From Methanoregula boonei 6A8 (GTDB taxonomy: Archaea > Halobacteriota > Methanomicrobia > Methanomicrobiales > Methanospirillaceae): DNA of 64,000 nt. Below the pieces are notes generated by a model. It saw only the letters and a list, made by a program, of their open reading frames with translations, was not told where the DNA came from and did no database searches. Location of the stretch: assembly GCF_000017625.1 (NCBI RefSeq), contig NC_009712.1:2108001-2172000 (forward strand). The letters run 5' to 3'. Every line of letters starts with the position of its first letter. Position 1 is the stretch's first letter. Position numbers and translations under genes: made by a program. This document shows, piece after piece, positions 9,972-18,458 of this stretch.

Positions 9972-11084
9972 TTACACCGGCAGCGGGATCTTTGTTGCTT
10001 CCAGCGCACTTTCGATCGCAAGGATCTCGTCAAGCTGGGCCCTGGTGGACGGCCCGTTGGGTACCGCCTTGCAGCCGGATGCCTTACTGGTGGACTCTTC
10101 AAAGGTTCCGATCTCGCGGGCAAGCGCAATGGCATCTGCCTTGTCAAACCCGATAAGCGGACGGTACACCGGGATCTCCGCCACATCGGAGAGGACAACA
10201 AGGTTGTCGAGAGTCTGGCTGGCTACCTGCCCGAGCGACTCCCCGTTCACGATACCTTTTGCCCCCACTTCCTGGGCTACGGCCTGCGCAATCCGGTACA
10301 TACGTCGTTTGCAGAAGAGACAGGTATACTTCTCCTGGTGGTTCCGGATCAGTTCCTCTTTTGCAGCTGCCAGGTACGAATCATGGATCACCCGGAGCTT
10401 CAGGTCCGGCTGGTACTGCCGCAGGATCTCTACCACCCGCTCGGCCCGGGCAAGCACGGTCTCGTCAAGGAAGGTCTCGAGTGCTACATAGATGGGGACG
10501 ATCTTACAGCCCCGCTTCATCATCATGTACGTTGCAACAGGAGAATCGATCCCGCCCGAGACAAGGGCAACAAGCGTTCCCTCTACCCCGAGGGGAAGAC
10601 CGCCCGCCCCCTTGATCACGGTATCGTACAGGTAGCACTCATCCTGCCGGATCTCGACATGGATCTCCACATCGGGAGTGGCGAGGTTTACCTTGAGATG
10701 CGGGAAGGCCTTTCTTACCTGGTCACCCAGTTCGATGGCCTTGTCGTTTGAGGAGAAATCGTGTTTTCCCACCCGTTTTATCCGGAGTGCAAAGGTCTTT
10801 GCCAGGGACAGTCCATGGGCCCGGCCATACTCGATAAGGGCCTCTTCGAGGGTAACCTCGCGGGGAACATGCTCAACCTCGGAGAACGAGACAATCCCAA
10901 AGATGTGCCGCAGTTTTACCGGGTCTGCATCACCGGTCAGCCAGATCCGGCCGCGTTCGTTCTTGATCCTGACGTCCGGCATCAGCTGCCGGATGTTGTT
11001 CATCAAAACGCGCTCCCAGTGCCGGCGCACCGGATCCGATTTTAAGAAGATCTCCGAGTACCTGACCAGCCATTTTTTCGTCAT
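9972..11084 (-). CDS. thiI: tRNA 4-thiouridine synthase ThiI (no rhodanese domain)
   Basis: 370 residues from the ATG at 11084 (MTKKWLVRYSEIFLKS); an in-frame ATG six codons upstream is less likely. Order: N-terminal ferredoxin-like region, THUMP domain (about 60-165), and PP-loop adenylation domain with SGGIDS at 176-181. A CxxC pair (CLFCKRR) and a further Cys (SGCKAVP) follow. ThiI activates U8 of tRNA with ATP and inserts sulfur to give 4-thiouridine. Like other archaeal forms it lacks the rhodanese domain of E. coli ThiI, so the sulfur donor must be another persulfide or sulfide. It is the last gene of the leftward pscS-metY-metX-thiI run, 46 bp after metX. Confidence 0.9.
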   Translation of the reverse strand: MTKKWLVRYSEIFLKSDPVRRHWERVLMNNIRQLMPDVRIKNERGRIWLTGDADPVKLRHIFGIVSFSEVEHVPREVTLEEALIEYGRAHGLSLAKTFALRIKRVGKHDFSSNDKAIELGDQVRKAFPHLKVNLATPDVEIHVEIRQDECYLYDTVIKGAGGLPLGVEGTLVALVSGGIDSPVATYMMMKRGCKIVPIYVALETFLDETVLARAERVVEILRQYQPDLKLRVIHDSYLAAAKEELIRNHQEKYTCLFCKRRMYRIAQAVAQEVGAKGIVNGESLGQVASQTLDNLVVLSDVAEIPVYRPLIGFDKADAIALAREIGTFEESTSKASGCKAVPNGPSTRAQLDEILAIESALEATKIPLPV

Positions 11085-11130
11085 TGTAGTATCCCCCGGC
11101 AAACGCTTACCGGATCCTGGCCCGCCCTCA

Positions 11131-12612
11131 TCACGGGTTCTGTCTCCCTACAAGGGTACTGATCGCATCGCTTGTAATAAGACCGATCACGTGCGAGTCG
11201 CCATCGATCACCGGAAGCGCGGAGATCGAGTGGGCCTCCATCTTGCGCGCCGCCTCGTCAACGGGCTCGTTCTCGGTGGTCGTGACCACGTTCCGGCTCA
11301 TAATCTCGTCAAGCCACAGGAAATTGGAAGCCACCGCCTTTGCAATGTCCCACGAGGTCACGATTCCCACGAGCTGGCCGGCAGGGGAGAGAACCGGCAG
11401 GTGATTGACACCACTGGTGATCATCCGCCGGGCGGTAACCGCGATCGTGGTACCTTCCTCGATGCACTCCACGTTCCTCGCCATCACGTCACCTACGACA
11501 GTATGGGAGAGGAACCGGGAGATCAGGTAGTTGAGCTGCCCGGATTCAAGGAGGAACGCATCATGGCCGTAGTTGGACCGGATCTCGCAGTACTGTACCT
11601 CGCGCTCGTTCGTGGTAAGGGCGGTAACAATCTCCTGCGACTGGTAAGGAGGGTACAGCCAGTCCGAGGTAACGGAGATAACAAAGAACGCAGCCTTTGC
11701 CGCTGCAAGGCCGGTGGTCAGGGACCCGTCTTTGGTGAGATCAAAGTAATCGATGGCCTTGGTGATGTAGAGATACGAGTTTGCATCGAACCTTTTTGTG
11801 AACGTATCACCCTGGTGGTGGAGGTAGCTCTCGATGGCAAACTCGGTGGAGAAATCAAAGCCCACCTGCGCCTTTCCCTGGAGCGAGCGCCCGAACTTCG
11901 CGTGCATCGATTCATCGGAGAGGTAGGTGATGTGGCCCACCATCCGGGCAAGGGCGAGGCCATGGGCAGGGGTCTTTTTCCCGTAATAGTCCCCGCCACT
12001 CCAGTCGGGATCGGAGAGAATCGCCTTCCGGCCCACCTCGTTAAAGGCGATCTGCTGGGGGGTGGAGTAGCCGGTCGTGGCGATGATGACCGCCTTTTTT
12101 ATAAGATCCGGGTAGGAGACAGTCCACTGGAGCGCCTGCATCCCCCCCATCGAGCCGCCTGCAACCGCATAGAGTTCGGGAATACCAAGGCTGTCAAGAA
12201 GAAGTTTCTGGGCGTTAACCATGTCCCGGATGGTCACCACCGGGAAGGTTGCGCCATAGGGTTTGCCCGTTTCGGGGTTGATGGTGGAAGGGCCGGTCGA
12301 GCCCTTACACCCCCCAAGCACGTTACTGCAGATAACAAAGTAACGCTCGGTATCAAACGCCTTTCCCGGCCCTACCACTGCGTCCCACCAGCCGGGTTTT
12401 GTTTCCCCGTTATGGAACCCGGCTACGTGAGCGTCGCCCGAGAGGGCATGGCAGAGAAGGATCGCGTTGCTCTTTTCCTTGTTGAGCCTGCCGTAGGTCT
12501 CGTAGGCAATCCTTATTTCGGGCAGCACCGCCCCGCTCTCCAGGGTAAAGGGACCGGGGAGGTCTGCGTACTGGGTCGTAACGATGCCTAGCGAGCCACG
12601 AAGCATACTCAT
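11131..12612 (-). CDS. metX: Homoserine O-acetyltransferase with C-terminal CBS pair
   Basis: 493 residues. Residues 1-365 form the alpha/beta-hydrolase MetX: nucleophile Ser154 in GGSMGG, an Asp in SDWLYP and the His in YGHDAF complete the triad. It acylates homoserine from acetyl-CoA for methionine synthesis. Two CBS domains occupy about 374-429 and 433-490; these usually bind adenine nucleotides or S-adenosylmethionine and control the enzyme, so feedback by a methionine-pathway nucleotide is a fair guess. It begins only 3 bp after the stop of metY, the enzyme that uses its product, so the two are surely co-transcribed. Start chosen at the first ATG; one at codon 3 is possible. Confidence 0.9.
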
Positions 12613-12615
12613 ACC

Positions 12616-13932
<1,317 letters not shown>

Positions 13933-13984: not shown

Positions 13985-15349
13985 TTATTTTGTTACCGGG
14001 AGCTCGAACTTTTCTGCGATCTCAGTGAAGGCGTCGGCAAGGTAGTGGACCTGCTTCTCCGACAGGCCGTAGGTGTTGAGTTTCCAGGTGCGGGTGGCAC
14101 CGGCAAACTCTCCCACGATCCCGCGGGATGAGAGCTCGTCGCTGAAGTAGAATCCCCGGCGCTTATGGGTCTTTGCCACCGTATCAAAACTCCCGGTGGT
14201 GTCGACCTTGGTGAGCGTGTGCCTGCGCGGGTACTCGGAAAGCACCCTGCTACCGGAGATTTTGAGGAGCCGGTCGATGAAGTAGTTCGAGCGCTTCACC
14301 TGCTCGTCCCAGTGCAGCACCCGTTCCTTGACCGCGGGGAACGAAGCAATCATGGAGAGCAGGGTCCCGCCCATCAGCGTACACCCGAGCAGCTCCACTT
14401 CCTTGATGCCGAATTTCCTTTTGGTGAGGTCTCCGACAATGGCAGTGGTACGAAGCGCCTTTGGCGCCCATTCTTTGGTCGTTGCAAGTACCCCGGACGG
14501 CGCGACCGATGCCATACTCTTGTGTCCGGAGCCTACCACAAAGTCGGCCCCGATCTTCTTGCCATCCACCGGCTGGACACCGACGGTGTAGGCGCCGTTG
14601 TAGAGGAAGGGGATATCATACTGGTGAGCCACTTTCCCGATCTCGCGGATCTCGTGCTCGTTTGCAAACTGGTAATCGAAGTGGTCGATCATCACCAGCA
14701 CCGGGAGTTTCCCGGTCTCAGTTTTGACCTCTTCGATCTTTTGTGCCGTTGCCTCACCGGTAACGATGTTTTTGGCATTCAGCGGCACTTCTTTTATCAC
14801 CCCTCCTGCATTTTCCACCGAGAGAAATTCGGTGTAATGGGCAAGTGCCGAGACAATCACGGAATCGCCCTTGTTTACGAGCGTCCCGGTAACCGCCTGG
14901 AACCCGCGGCGGGCGCCGGGCACGACCCGGGCATGGTCCATGTTGAGCCATTTGGCAAGGTCGGCATGGAATTCCGCGATTCCCGGTTTTGAGATCTTGT
15001 CCAGCCGGAACGGTTTCCGGCAGGCATCACAGGTGGAATAGCCATCCCCATAGGAGATGATCGCCTTACGGGCTTCGGTCGTCAACCGTCCGGCGGCCTG
15101 GATGGGGTGGATGTTGATGTACTGCTCCTCGCGGGAACGGACATCAAGGGTACCTGCGATCTTGGTTACTTTCGGTGTCCCGGTGCCGGCTTCAAGATCC
15201 GCAACAATCGCCTTGAGATTGCCGATCCTCTGCCGGAACGCCGCCTCCTCCTCGGCCGAGAGGCCGGTGGGAAGGGAATCGCGGAAGATCCCGCGGATCT
15301 CTTCAAGTTCGAAGAGGGCCTCGAATGTTTTCTGGACTCTGATACTCAT
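13985..15349 (-). CDS. pscS: O-phosphoseryl-tRNA:Cys-tRNA synthase (SepCysS)
   Basis: 454 residues. It converts phosphoserine on tRNA-Cys to cysteine with a sulfur donor, the second step of tRNA-dependent cysteine synthesis in methanogens. The core starts at about residue 77 (YINIHPIQAAGRLT). The cysteines known to matter in this family are present as Cys107 and Cys110 (YSTCDAC) and Cys323 (LLGCTLMGG); the PLP lysine is Lys277 in GSGHKSMAS. Residues 1-75 are an N-terminal extension with a helical, acidic character; in this family such extensions may aid complex formation with SepRS, but I cannot assign this one. GAGGT lies 7 nt before the ATG, in a 16-nt gap that separates it from the 3' end of a tRNA-Cys gene. 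Confidence 0.95.
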   Translation of the reverse strand: MSIRVQKTFEALFELEEIRGIFRDSLPTGLSAEEEAAFRQRIGNLKAIVADLEAGTGTPKVTKIAGTLDVRSREEQYINIHPIQAAGRLTTEARKAIISYGDGYSTCDACRKPFRLDKISKPGIAEFHADLAKWLNMDHARVVPGARRGFQAVTGTLVNKGDSVIVSALAHYTEFLSVENAGGVIKEVPLNAKNIVTGEATAQKIEEVKTETGKLPVLVMIDHFDYQFANEHEIREIGKVAHQYDIPFLYNGAYTVGVQPVDGKKIGADFVVGSGHKSMASVAPSGVLATTKEWAPKALRTTAIVGDLTKRKFGIKEVELLGCTLMGGTLLSMIASFPAVKERVLHWDEQVKRSNYFIDRLLKISGSRVLSEYPRRHTLTKVDTTGSFDTVAKTHKRRGFYFSDELSSRGIVGEFAGATRTWKLNTYGLSEKQVHYLADAFTEIAEKFELPVTK

Positions 15350-15365
15350 GAATATACCTCGGAAA

Positions 15366-15436
15366 AGCCAGGACCCGGAATCGAACCGGGATACGCTGAT
15401 CTGCAGTCAGCCGCGTAGCCTTTCCGCCATCCTGGC
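15366..15436 (-). tRNA. tRNA-Cys (GCA), copy 1
   Basis: 71 nt on the minus strand. Acceptor stem GCCAGGA pairs with TCCTGGC; anticodon stem GCTGA/TCAGC closes loop CTGCAGA with anticodon GCA; T arm is CCGGG TTCGATT-type with GGTTCGATTCC. The discriminator is U73, as expected for tRNA-Cys. No CCA is encoded. It is identical to the copy at 16744-16814 and sits 16 nt ahead of the gene for SepCysS, the enzyme that acts on it. Confidence 0.95.
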
Positions 15437-15441
15437 ATCAC

Positions 15442-15457
15442 ATTCACGATTGTGAAT
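15442..15457. promoter_or_regulatory. Palindrome ahead of tRNA-Cys copy 1 (site A)
   Basis: ATTCACGATTGTGAAT: 6-bp inverted arms around GATT, 5 bp upstream of the tRNA 5' end and about 40 bp downstream of the TATA-like element. It shares the 14-bp core TTCACRATTGTGAW with two other sites (16823-16836 and 18127-18140). Likely an operator; a leader hairpin is the alternative. Confidence 0.6.
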
Positions 15458-15689: not shown

Positions 15690-16685
15690 TCAGAGATCCC
15701 GGTGAGGAGTAAGATCGCAGCCCGTGCAGGGCAGGCACATGGTCTGCGCAAGACGCACGTCAAGATCGTGCCGATCCAGGGCTGCACGGTTGATCCGGGC
15801 CAGTTTGATGAGCCGGTCAGATGACGGGCGGACAACCTCAAGCTGGCCCTTTCTCAGCGGATGCGGGGAGATGGGGCGGAGGTTGGGGATGACCCCCATG
15901 CCGGTAAGGATCTCGACACCCTGTTCCACGCACTCATCCGACTCCCCCAGACCAAGGATGAAATTTGAGGAGACGTGGTTTTTCCCAAAGACTTCAACGG
16001 CCTCAGGAAGAGCCGCAAGAATATCATCAAGGGAGAGGTTCGGGCAGACTCTGGTGAAGATTTCGCGATCCATGGTCTCGACATTGTACTTGATCTCGAT
16101 GGCACCGGCCTCACGGAGATCTCTGGTGGATGTGGCGGTGGGATAGAGGGAAACCCCGATGGGATACTCGTAACGGGAGGCAAGGTGCCTGACAACCCGG
16201 ACCAGGTACTCTGCCTCTTTTTCCGGTGATTCGGCAACGCCGCTTGTGAGCGAGATCGCCTTAAGATCCCCCCGTGAGGCTGCAGCGGCCACCATGTCAT
16301 CGATCTCCCCGATGGTCTTTACCCTTCCGTTCTGGATCGGCACCGGGCAGAACTTGCAGTCAAAGATGCAGCGTTCGCTGACCGTGATGTAGGCCTGGTC
16401 AGGGCAGTGACAGAGGGGCAGTTCGAGCTGGCCTGAAGCAATGATCTGCCCGTCCATCCTGACCGCTACCCCGTTTTTCCAGGGGATCACCTTCAGGGGA
16501 GACTCTTTTTTTATGGAGAGCCGGACCCGGCGGCTGCCGGACCGGATGAAAAATGAGGAGCCGCCTGCACCCGGCCCTGCGGTTGCCGTTGTTTTCATGC
16601 TCTCAGGCAAAAGGGATGCATCGATATCGGCACCCCCGATATTTATCAGGATAGCTTTTGTTTGTGCAGTAAGTCCCGGATCCAT
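15690..16685 (-). CDS. Radical SAM protein of unknown role, linked to tRNA-Cys
   Basis: About 331 residues from the ATG at 16685 (GGTGA 6 nt upstream; a GTG at 16688 is also in frame). The radical SAM core has CIFDCKFC (Cys106, 110, 113) that binds the 4Fe-4S cluster used to cleave S-adenosylmethionine. A CHC motif lies just before it (92-94). The C-terminus ends with CLPCTGC, a CxxCxxC group that could hold a second cluster. It resembles biotin-synthase-related radical SAM proteins of archaea (COG2516-like), but no substrate can be named. It follows tRNA-Cys copy 2 by about 58 bp on the same strand and lies upstream of the tRNA-Cys/pscS unit, so a role in cysteine or tRNA-Cys biology is a reasonable inference. 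Confidence 0.8.
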   Translation of the reverse strand: MDPGLTAQTKAILINIGGADIDASLLPESMKTTATAGPGAGGSSFFIRSGSRRVRLSIKKESPLKVIPWKNGVAVRMDGQIIASGQLELPLCHCPDQAYITVSERCIFDCKFCPVPIQNGRVKTIGEIDDMVAAAASRGDLKAISLTSGVAESPEKEAEYLVRVVRHLASRYEYPIGVSLYPTATSTRDLREAGAIEIKYNVETMDREIFTRVCPNLSLDDILAALPEAVEVFGKNHVSSNFILGLGESDECVEQGVEILTGMGVIPNLRPISPHPLRKGQLEVVRPSSDRLIKLARINRAALDRHDLDVRLAQTMCLPCTGCDLTPHRDL

Positions 16686-16743
16686 CACATATCACCTGGA
16701 AAAACAGCTCCGTCAGGGGCATCTTATTCCCTGATAACAGGAA

Positions 16744-16814
16744 AGCCAGGACCCGGAATCGAACCGGGATACGCTGATCTGCAGTCAGCCGCGTAGCCTT
16801 TCCGCCATCCTGGC
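16744..16814 (-). tRNA. tRNA-Cys (GCA), copy 2
   Basis: 71 nt, identical base for base to copy 1, including anticodon GCA and discriminator U73; no encoded CCA. Same strand as copy 1, 1.3 kb upstream of it. It precedes the radical SAM gene. Confidence 0.95.
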
Positions 16815-16822
16815 ACGGGCGG

Positions 16823-16836
16823 TTCACAATTGTGAT
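16823..16836. promoter_or_regulatory. Palindrome ahead of tRNA-Cys copy 2 (site B)
   Basis: TTCACAATTGTGAT; the inner 12 bp TCACAATTGTGA (16824-16835) are a perfect palindrome. It lies 8 bp upstream of the tRNA, at nearly the same place as site A, and about 36 bp downstream of its TATA box. Confidence 0.6.
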
Positions 16837-17446: not shown

Positions 17447-18170
17447 CCCGGAAAAGTCCTGAGGGTACAGGATCCCTCCCCCCCTTGGCTTGCCCCGTAA
17501 CCGCTTCAGCCGGAAAAAAGGATAGTCCGGCATTCGTTCCGCGAGATTATCCCGGGAAAAGACACCCCCCACTCCCATCTCTTAGTATCTAAGCGCAGCG
17601 GATAACCCGTTGCCGCGATCTGTATATAATGTGCAGGTTCCGGAGGATTTTGCTCAATTGCAGGATTTCATATGGAATCCCTGCTCACCAGTAATCGTGC
17701 CCCTGCGATCCGTTTCCCGGAAATATTCACGCCGGAACCGTATGGCCCGTCTTGCATTTCAGGACCGGACAACCGTGTACTGCAACCAGTGTTACTGCCA
17801 TAATCCCCGCCGCTGTTTCCAGCAGGCAAATCGCAATCCACTCTTCCGTTAGGTATCCATTTTTCCCGGATACCTGCGGGCTTCCCTTCTTGGTATATTG
17901 TGCCGCACCCCCTTTCCCAACGCATCCGAAAGAGGATTTTATGTGCAGATCTCATGCGCGGAGATAATGAGCCACCAAATGTAATATGCTTCAGAAGCAT
18001 ATTTACCGGAATCCGGATTTATCCAAAATAACGATTTATTGCTGTTAAAAACAAAATATGGTCAAATTTATAAGATATTTTACCTCCCCGCACCGGGACA
18101 AGGCTGAGGAAATTGATCCGAAAGACTTAACAATTGTGAATTCAACCTTGGTATGGTGATCCAACTATGA
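17447..18170. other. Long intergenic region, no convincing gene
   Basis: About 720 bp. Short open frames on both strands (17610-17852 plus, 17668-18000 minus) lack recognisable content and overlap each other. The last 170 bp are AT-rich, contain a TATA-like AATTTATAAG at about 18065-18074 and lead to the winged-HTH gene. Confidence 0.5.
18127..18140. promoter_or_regulatory. Palindrome ahead of the winged-HTH gene (site C)
   Basis: TTAACAATTGTGAA, matching sites A and B at 12 or 13 of 14 positions. It lies in the upstream region of a small DNA-binding protein gene, which fits an autoregulated repressor that also controls the tRNA-Cys units. A second palindrome, GTTGTA-AA-TACAAC, is at 18183-18196. 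Confidence 0.5.
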
Positions 18171-18251
18171 GGGATCGTCTTTGTTGTAAATACAACCGAA
18201 ACTGATAGACCCGCAGCCGGGATCGGGCATCTGCCCCCTTCGGCAAAACTC

Positions 18252-18458
18252 GTGTATAAAGTGCTGGAAACCAACGGCAAACTGACACAGAAAGATCTCA
18301 TCCGTGAGACCTCACTGCCGTCCAGAACCGTGCGGTATGCATTGAACAGGCTCAAGAGCGAGAAGTTCTTAATCGAGCATTATTACTTCATCGATGCCCG
18401 GCAGAGCCTGTACGGCCTCAACCCGCAACCGTCCCAGGAAGAGGTGGTACCTGTATGA
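18252..18458 (+). CDS. Small winged-HTH regulator, start unclear
   Basis: The frame reads through a winged helix-turn-helix of the archaeal MarR-like type: LPPSAKLVYKVLE, TQKDLIRETSLPSRTVRYALNRLKSE, and a YFIDARQSLYGL end. The first usual start codon in frame is GTG 18252, but this would cut the conserved LPPSAK helix that begins at about 18231. The frame stays open back to a TGA at 18168-18170, just after an in-frame ATG at 18153, and has no ATG, GTG or TTG between. So either an unusual start is used, or the gene is broken by the TGA, or a frameshift joins it to the ATG at 18167. If expressed, it is probably a DNA-binding repressor and a candidate to bind palindromes A-C. Confidence 0.6.
   Translation: MYKVLETNGKLTQKDLIRETSLPSRTVRYALNRLKSEKFLIEHYYFIDARQSLYGLNPQPSQEEVVPV

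Follow-up and report, generated by a model that had tools for sequence, protein, structure and literature searches.

A radical SAM gene next to tRNA-Cys in Methanoregula boonei as a probable member of an operator-marked cysteine and sulfur regulon

Introduction

Two described systems come closest to the locus analysed here. The main text of Mukai et al. (2017; PMC5424206) describes loci of clade VII Sep-tRNA:Cys-tRNA synthases (SepCysS), at which an extended second SepCysS occurs with tRNA-Cys and sulfur-metabolism genes, and in that main text no radical SAM enzyme, common operator or regulon is named. The locus from Methanoregula boonei 6A8 shares with these the extended SepCysS, a tRNA-Cys 16 bp upstream, and MetY, MetX and ThiI downstream. 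As at the published loci, a gene for a tRNA-Thr editing domain is found in several sister genomes (L075, L076, L079 and L096). The match was judged on these features. In one of the sister loci (L076:16579-17601) a single open frame joins the tRNA-Thr editing domain to DUF1890.

The second system is the lipoyl synthase LipS2, a radical SAM enzyme that inserts sulfur at a terminal carbon. Its auxiliary [4Fe-4S] cluster is held by C85, C276, C279 and probably H178, with a CxxC motif at the C-terminus (PMC9585515). The protein described below has a radical SAM core and extra C-terminal cysteines in common with LipS2; here C95 and C318/C321/C324 are the conserved residues, and the gene has no lipoyl context. 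The literature searched holds no relevant description of the operator sequence reported below or of a radical SAM enzyme with SepCysS and tRNA-Cys. Relative to that literature, the radical SAM partner and the proposed operator control appear to be new, and the setting of tRNA-Cys with SepCysS is known in general terms.

The tRNA-Cys island of Methanoregula boonei

The stretch of DNA that was analysed, hereafter the window, comprises 64,000 nucleotides (NC_009712.1, positions 2,108,001 to 2,172,000) of a single-contig genome of 2.54 Mb. ARAGORN identifies two tRNA-Cys(GCA) genes of identical sequence on the (-) strand, copy 1 at 15366..15436 and copy 2 at 16744..16814, an island isodecoder with U73 and G37. 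Copy 1 is followed after 16 bp by the second SepCysS (13985..15349, (-); N-terminally extended, 454 aa, 629 bits) and then, on the same strand, by O-acetylhomoserine sulfhydrylase, MetY (12616..13911), homoserine O-acetyltransferase, MetX, with a C-terminal CBS pair (11131..12612), and a THUMP and PP-loop protein of the tRNA uracil 4-sulfurtransferase family, ThiI (9972..11102). Copy 2 is followed after 55 bp by the radical SAM gene (15690..16688, (-)), which encodes 332 aa from a GTG or 331 aa from the ATG directly after it, the latter being the likelier start, judging from the AGGTGAT Shine-Dalgarno sequence ahead of it. The original prediction that the radical SAM gene stands behind copy 2 as SepCysS stands behind copy 1 is confirmed.

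Elsewhere the genome carries a third, housekeeping tRNA-Cys (2247201-2247272) with 79% identity to the island pair, and another SepCysS (1033370-1034551), of which the window copy is the longer and higher-scoring counterpart. SepRS is also present, and another operator-bearing stretch includes a CysRS gene.

Upstream of both tRNA-Cys genes of the window is the palindrome (T/A)TCACAAT(T/C)GTGAA, the general form of which is TTCACAATTGTGAA. The putative operator ATCACAATTGTGAA (16823..16836, unstranded) precedes copy 2 by approximately 9 bp, TTCACAATCGTGAA (15443..15456, unstranded) precedes copy 1 by approximately 7 bp, and an operator-like site, TTAACAATTGTGAA (18127..18140, unstranded), is located upstream of a divergent winged-helix gene. 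The 55 bp between copy 2 and the radical SAM gene contain no TATA-like element or obvious promoter; a sigma-70 promoter scan is inapplicable to archaea. Co-transcription of the gene with tRNA-Cys, as originally proposed, is well supported by the common strand, the 55 bp gap, the operator upstream of the tRNA and an arrangement that is kept in Methanoregula and its relatives. On these features tRNA-Cys copy 2 and the radical SAM gene, in that order, would form one transcription unit, and we regard such a common transcript as highly likely.

A radical SAM subfamily associated with tRNA-Cys

The family was sought in 199 genomes of the order, and 109 family members were placed in a tree. Within the order they fall into two groups: sequences of the window type, and a paralogue with 44% identity that is found nearly everywhere. 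The window protein is placed among Methanomicrobiales sequences, close to the Methanosarcina and Methanotrichaceae groups and separate from ANME-2/Methanoperedens, ANME-1 and amidohydrolase-linked groups. For comparison we used a working set, termed A1, of 46 rows (28 from Methanomicrobiales, nine from Methanosarcina, one from Methanohalobium and eight from Methanotrichaceae), which is not one supported clade, as the Methanotrichaceae rows branch with ANME-type rows. Five more Methanoregulaceae rows from sulfur islands branch basally and were excluded. The distribution of A1 is patchy, with 27 of the 199 genomes carrying it.

A tRNA-Cys gene is located within approximately 10 kb of 34 of the 46 A1 members, compared with one of the 63 other family members, and no other type of tRNA is near A1. 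SepCysS2, called by score and frame length, is present in 25 of the 27 A1 genomes vs 20 of the 172 others (Fisher test, uncorrected for kinship), so that the co-occurrence that had been suggested as a check is found; the two exceptions are G096 and G109. Outside the order, SepCysS is present in all 12 A1-bearing genomes tested. The association with tRNA-Cys does not extend to the family as a whole: A1 is near tRNA-Cys, but the ANME-2, ANME-1 and amidohydrolase-linked members and the mmp11-linked paralogue are away from it.

The genes found around A1 encode, besides tRNA-Cys and SepCysS2, MetY, MetX, ThiI, cysteine desulfurase, FdhD, LarE, MoeB and MoaD, together with CysE, CysK, NadA, an NcsA/TtuA-like protein, DUF1890 and DUF1894.

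Several observations were made in passing on these loci. Methanosarcina sp. UBA5 has five tRNA-Cys genes in a row (L124:2919-6992), four of them with an exact operator approximately 10 bp upstream. More than one long, high-scoring SepCysS copy is present in each of G022, G124 and G064. Near the islands there is a further type of tRNA-Cys, with A37 and a G73 discriminator (L074:2202, L076:7358, L183:3941, L186:5729 and L188:887), in contrast to the U73/G37 copies; it is likely to be the G73 tRNA-Cys cited for Methanoregula in PMC8762117, and is perhaps read by CysRS only. In ten of 20 ANME-2/Methanoperedens loci (L139, L141, L144, L160 and others) a gene for a JAB/desampylase-like metalloprotease follows the family member.

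An operator common to cysteine and sulfur genes

In the M. boonei genome the palindrome gives 19 strand-hits with at most one mismatch, compared with one for the reversed motif, and some of the one-mismatch sites are probably due to chance. Besides the sites before tRNA-Cys copy 1-SepCysS2 and before tRNA-Cys copy 2-radical SAM, the palindrome is found before cysK-cysE, before genes for a SufS-like protein and ThiF, before a ThiI-like gene, before CysK2-MetB-CysRS, and between HTH-LarE-FdhD and IscS-IscU-MoeB-MoaD-MoaE.

The same signal recurs in other genomes. In Methanomicrobiales, Methanosarcinaceae and Methanotrichaceae, TTCACAATTGTGAA immediately precedes island tRNA-Cys genes and the radical SAM unit. 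For Methanosarcina, Methanohalobium and the other Methanomicrobiales, most of the island tRNA-Cys copies have it approximately 10 bp upstream. Across 1.62 Mb of loci there are 250 sites with at most two mismatches, compared with six for the reversed motif; of the 199 genomes, 57 have the exact palindrome and none has the reversed control. An operator with at most two mismatches precedes the radical SAM unit by no more than 300 bp for 34 of the 46 A1 members and for none of the 63 other family members. Where no tRNA precedes the A1 gene, several genomes have an operator copy for the gene itself, approximately 26 bp upstream in G086 and approximately 90 bp upstream in G002. Operators are carried by SepCysS2 in 16 of 21 cases and by NadA in 11 of 18, and rarely or never by operon-internal genes. 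These associations of operator and context share ancestry and are uncorrected for kinship, and they were seen in several lineages and in different gene orders.

As sites of the palindrome mark cysteine and sulfur genes genome-wide, the radical SAM gene is very probably part of a cysteine and sulfur regulon, as judged from the sequences. A functional tie of the gene to sulfur and cysteine genes is strongly supported by the common operator. The same evidence bears on the notion that the linkage is incidental, the gene having come to lie between duplicated tRNA-Cys genes by insertion or duplication and hitch-hiking on the tRNA promoter: the two tRNA-Cys genes that flank it are identical and directly repeated, as a tRNA-gene insertion element would leave them, but in three lineages, and in differing orientations, A1 genes that do not follow a tRNA have the same operator, and no integrase was seen adjoining the gene, so that we consider this explanation very improbable.

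Candidate regulators

The best candidate for a regulator that binds the operator is probably a small HTH-like protein whose tail contains cysteine and which is encoded with LarE and FdhD (L208:7058-7402, (-); genome 2197057-2197401). It matches no Pfam family, and its HTH nature comes from a reading of the sequence. Homologues are found in 111 of the 199 genomes and in 56 of the 57 that bear the operator, and the operator lies upstream of the gene in all 14 loci. The island form of the winged-helix protein was also considered as the operator binder and was rejected because it is present in only 26 of the 57 operator-bearing genomes; by this comparison the LarE-linked protein is the better candidate.

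The divergent gene of the window for this small winged-helix regulator (18167..18458, (+)) has a peculiarity of its own. It begins ATG AGG GAT CGT CTT TGT, but its HTH body lies in the +1 frame, and there is a putative frameshift site at CTT (18179-18181) and TGT (18182-18184). Homologues (L073-L079, L092, L096, L102, L108, L111, L113, L115-L121, L123 and L181-L188) have a conserved start, ATG (xx) AGG GAT CGN (C/T)TT TG(T/C), which gives M-R-D-R-(F/L)-C in the zero frame ahead of an HTH body in the +1 frame. The cysteine codon is kept in all 24 island-type genes examined, most of which have no ATG, GTG or TTG in the HTH frame. The start is similar to the +1 site of bacterial RF2, except that a cysteine codon stands where RF2 has UGA; it is therefore possible that the regulator is made by +1 frameshifting at this codon in a manner dependent on Cys-tRNA. 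A 2021 review records one known programmed frameshift in archaea, which is of the -1 kind (PMC8211752).

Structure and relationships of the radical SAM protein

The protein is a member of the radical SAM superfamily (Radical_SAM, PF04055, 58.4 bits against a cut-off of 29.5), and this is the only family above its cut-off in NCBIfam, Pfam and PDB sequence searches. Residues C95, C107, C111, C114, C215, C318, C321 and C324, and also H94, are invariant in the family, C107, C111 and C114 in alignments of 28 and 49 sequences. The core CxxxCxxC (C107-C111-C114) and the C-terminal CxxCxxC (C318-C321-C324) are as originally described, but the CHC reported ahead of the core holds only in part, as C93 is not invariant. 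The core and the extra cysteines (C95, C215, C318, C321 and C324) are shared by the paralogue. In-frame TGA or TAA codons in several homologues were considered as possible recoding and dismissed as ordinary terminal stops after ...DLTP, with the exception of one Arg-to-TGA change (L018).

An AlphaFold model of the protein (mean pLDDT 94.4) has as its best solved match lipoyl synthase (5exi; Z 20.5, rmsd 3.1, 231 residues aligned), followed at Z 18-19 by HydE (7o1o, Z 19.0) and BioB (8vcw, Z 18.8); Z values within 1 of each other count as tied, the absence of other folds from the list is no evidence, and fold alone shows no function. With these nearest solved folds, those of LipA, BioB and HydE, identity is 16-20%, and the window protein is below the family cut-offs. 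By sequence, the best-matching family of tested function is LipS2, far under its cut-off (NF053743; 47.5 bits against 270, the paralogue reaching 65 bits). The BioB model gives 31.4 of the 225 bits of its cut-off, and the MSMEG_0568 family (TIGR04043) 77.3 bits against 303.7, aligned over residues 110-325. The N-terminal Cx4Cx5C and C-terminal RSSY of LipA are absent from the window protein, which has only C93/C95 before the core and CxxCxxC at its end, and the lipA models are under their cut-offs.

Possible functions of the radical SAM enzyme

Four invariant cysteines beyond the core and a fold of the lipoyl synthase/BioB type support the proposal of additional iron-sulfur chemistry. In sequence order, the pre-core cysteine and the C-terminal CxxCxxC fill the places of the auxiliary-cluster ligands of lipoyl synthase. 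The conserved cysteines would fit one auxiliary cluster, with C95 and the C-terminal motif coming together, as we infer. Together with co-transcription and the tie to sulfur and cysteine genes, this leaves the interpretation first given to the locus partly supported, the link of the family with tRNA-Cys applying to A1 only. The actions first suggested for the enzyme, modifying tRNA-Cys and supplying or sensing sulfur, are conjectural.

We put at about even the chance that the protein is a radical SAM enzyme of the lipoyl synthase, BioB and LipS2 kind that inserts sulfur, acting within the cysteine and sulfur regulon. In the proposed reaction a 5′-deoxyadenosyl radical arising at the C107/C111/C114 cluster would take hydrogen from an unactivated carbon of the substrate, and the resulting substrate radical would draw sulfur from an auxiliary [4Fe-4S] cluster that has C95 and C318/C321/C324 as its ligands. 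The sacrificed cluster would need to be rebuilt, a task for which the desulfurases and scaffold of the regulon (IscS, IscU and the SufS-like protein) would serve, and hence sulfur insertion is our best guess, one with roughly equal odds of being right or wrong. Expression would follow cysteine or sulfur status through a regulator that binds TTCACAATTGTGAA, probably the small LarE-linked protein. Two points weigh against sulfur insertion: the same fold occurs in HydE, ThiH, PylB and NosL, none of which inserts sulfur, and every family score is far under its curated cut-off. Moreover, ANME-2, ANME-1 and amidohydrolase-linked members occur without operator and without tRNA-Cys, and the reaction may therefore not be specific to the tRNA-Cys setting.

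Two other functions seem to us unlikely, to about the same degree. The enzyme could act on tRNA-Cys, or on Sep- or Cys-tRNA-Cys, for example in nucleoside thiolation or methylthiolation, and travel with the gene for its substrate. The most widespread partner of A1 is indeed tRNA-Cys, directly upstream on the same strand in 15 of the 46 rows and divergent within 300 bp in four; at four Methanothrix loci the A1 gene stands next to one for CysRS, a tRNA-Cys lies no more than 2 kb away and few other sulfur genes are near, and genes of the tRNA-thiolation type (ThiI, NcsA/TtuA-like) lie in the same islands. However, the protein has no RNA-binding domain, Radical_SAM being the only family reported by Pfam (E 0.01) and the UPF0004 and TRAM domains of MiaB and MtaB being absent; TIGR01579 and TIGR00089 match only the paralogue, far under cut-off. 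Several family groups are away from tRNA-Cys, the Methanosarcina A1 gene keeps company with Mmp16/HcyBio, ABC and HypB-like genes, and a regulon that includes tRNA-Cys accounts for the linkage without the tRNA being a substrate.

The Methanosarcina arrangement, in which the A1 gene precedes genes for an ABC ATPase, a HypB-like GTPase, an Fe-S protein and Mmp16, bears on the other function as well, as Mmp16 carries a homocysteine-biosynthesis sulfur-incorporation domain. The enzyme could serve a thiol cofactor or metallocofactor of methanogens (in making coenzyme B or M, or as a HydE/NifB-kind maturase) and belong to the sulfur regulon because its pathway uses sulfur. In this respect the paralogue, with its 44% identity and nearly universal occurrence, is suggestive: it has no tRNA-Cys near and no operator (0 of 8), and its neighbours are homocitrate/homoaconitase-type and methanogenesis marker genes. 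The chemistry of LipS2, a terminal thiol on an acyl chain, would also resemble 7-mercaptoheptanoyl formation. To our knowledge, cofactors of the coenzyme B and M type are required by all methanogens, yet A1 is carried by only 27 of the 199 genomes and the universal paralogue would suffice; nor was a gene for coenzyme B or M synthesis recognized in the window island. The paralogue operon itself (L045:2219-10837 and L046-L052) comprises two methanogenesis marker 11 genes and genes for an IorA-like TPP enzyme, a homocitrate-synthase-like protein, homoaconitase-like subunits and XcbA/DUF7714, adjoins Ftr, and looks like an operon for a thiol cofactor, possibly coenzyme B.

Less probable again is a circuit centred on the tRNA, in which one operator would switch the tRNA-Cys genes, SepCysS2 and the radical SAM gene, a shortage of Cys-tRNA would lead to production of the winged-helix regulator by +1 frameshifting at its invariant cysteine codon, and the substrate of the enzyme would be tRNA-Cys or a tRNA-Cys-bound intermediate.

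Implications

Archaeal tRNA genes are usually regarded as constitutively expressed. That a conserved operator stands between the promoter and the tRNA-Cys gene in several lineages of methanogens suggests a common regulation of tRNA-Cys supply, cysteine synthesis, iron-sulfur assembly and the radical SAM enzyme. An uncharacterized radical SAM family thereby gains a context and a role that can be tested, and experiments could now address why a second SepCysS and additional tRNA-Cys genes are retained by many methanogens.
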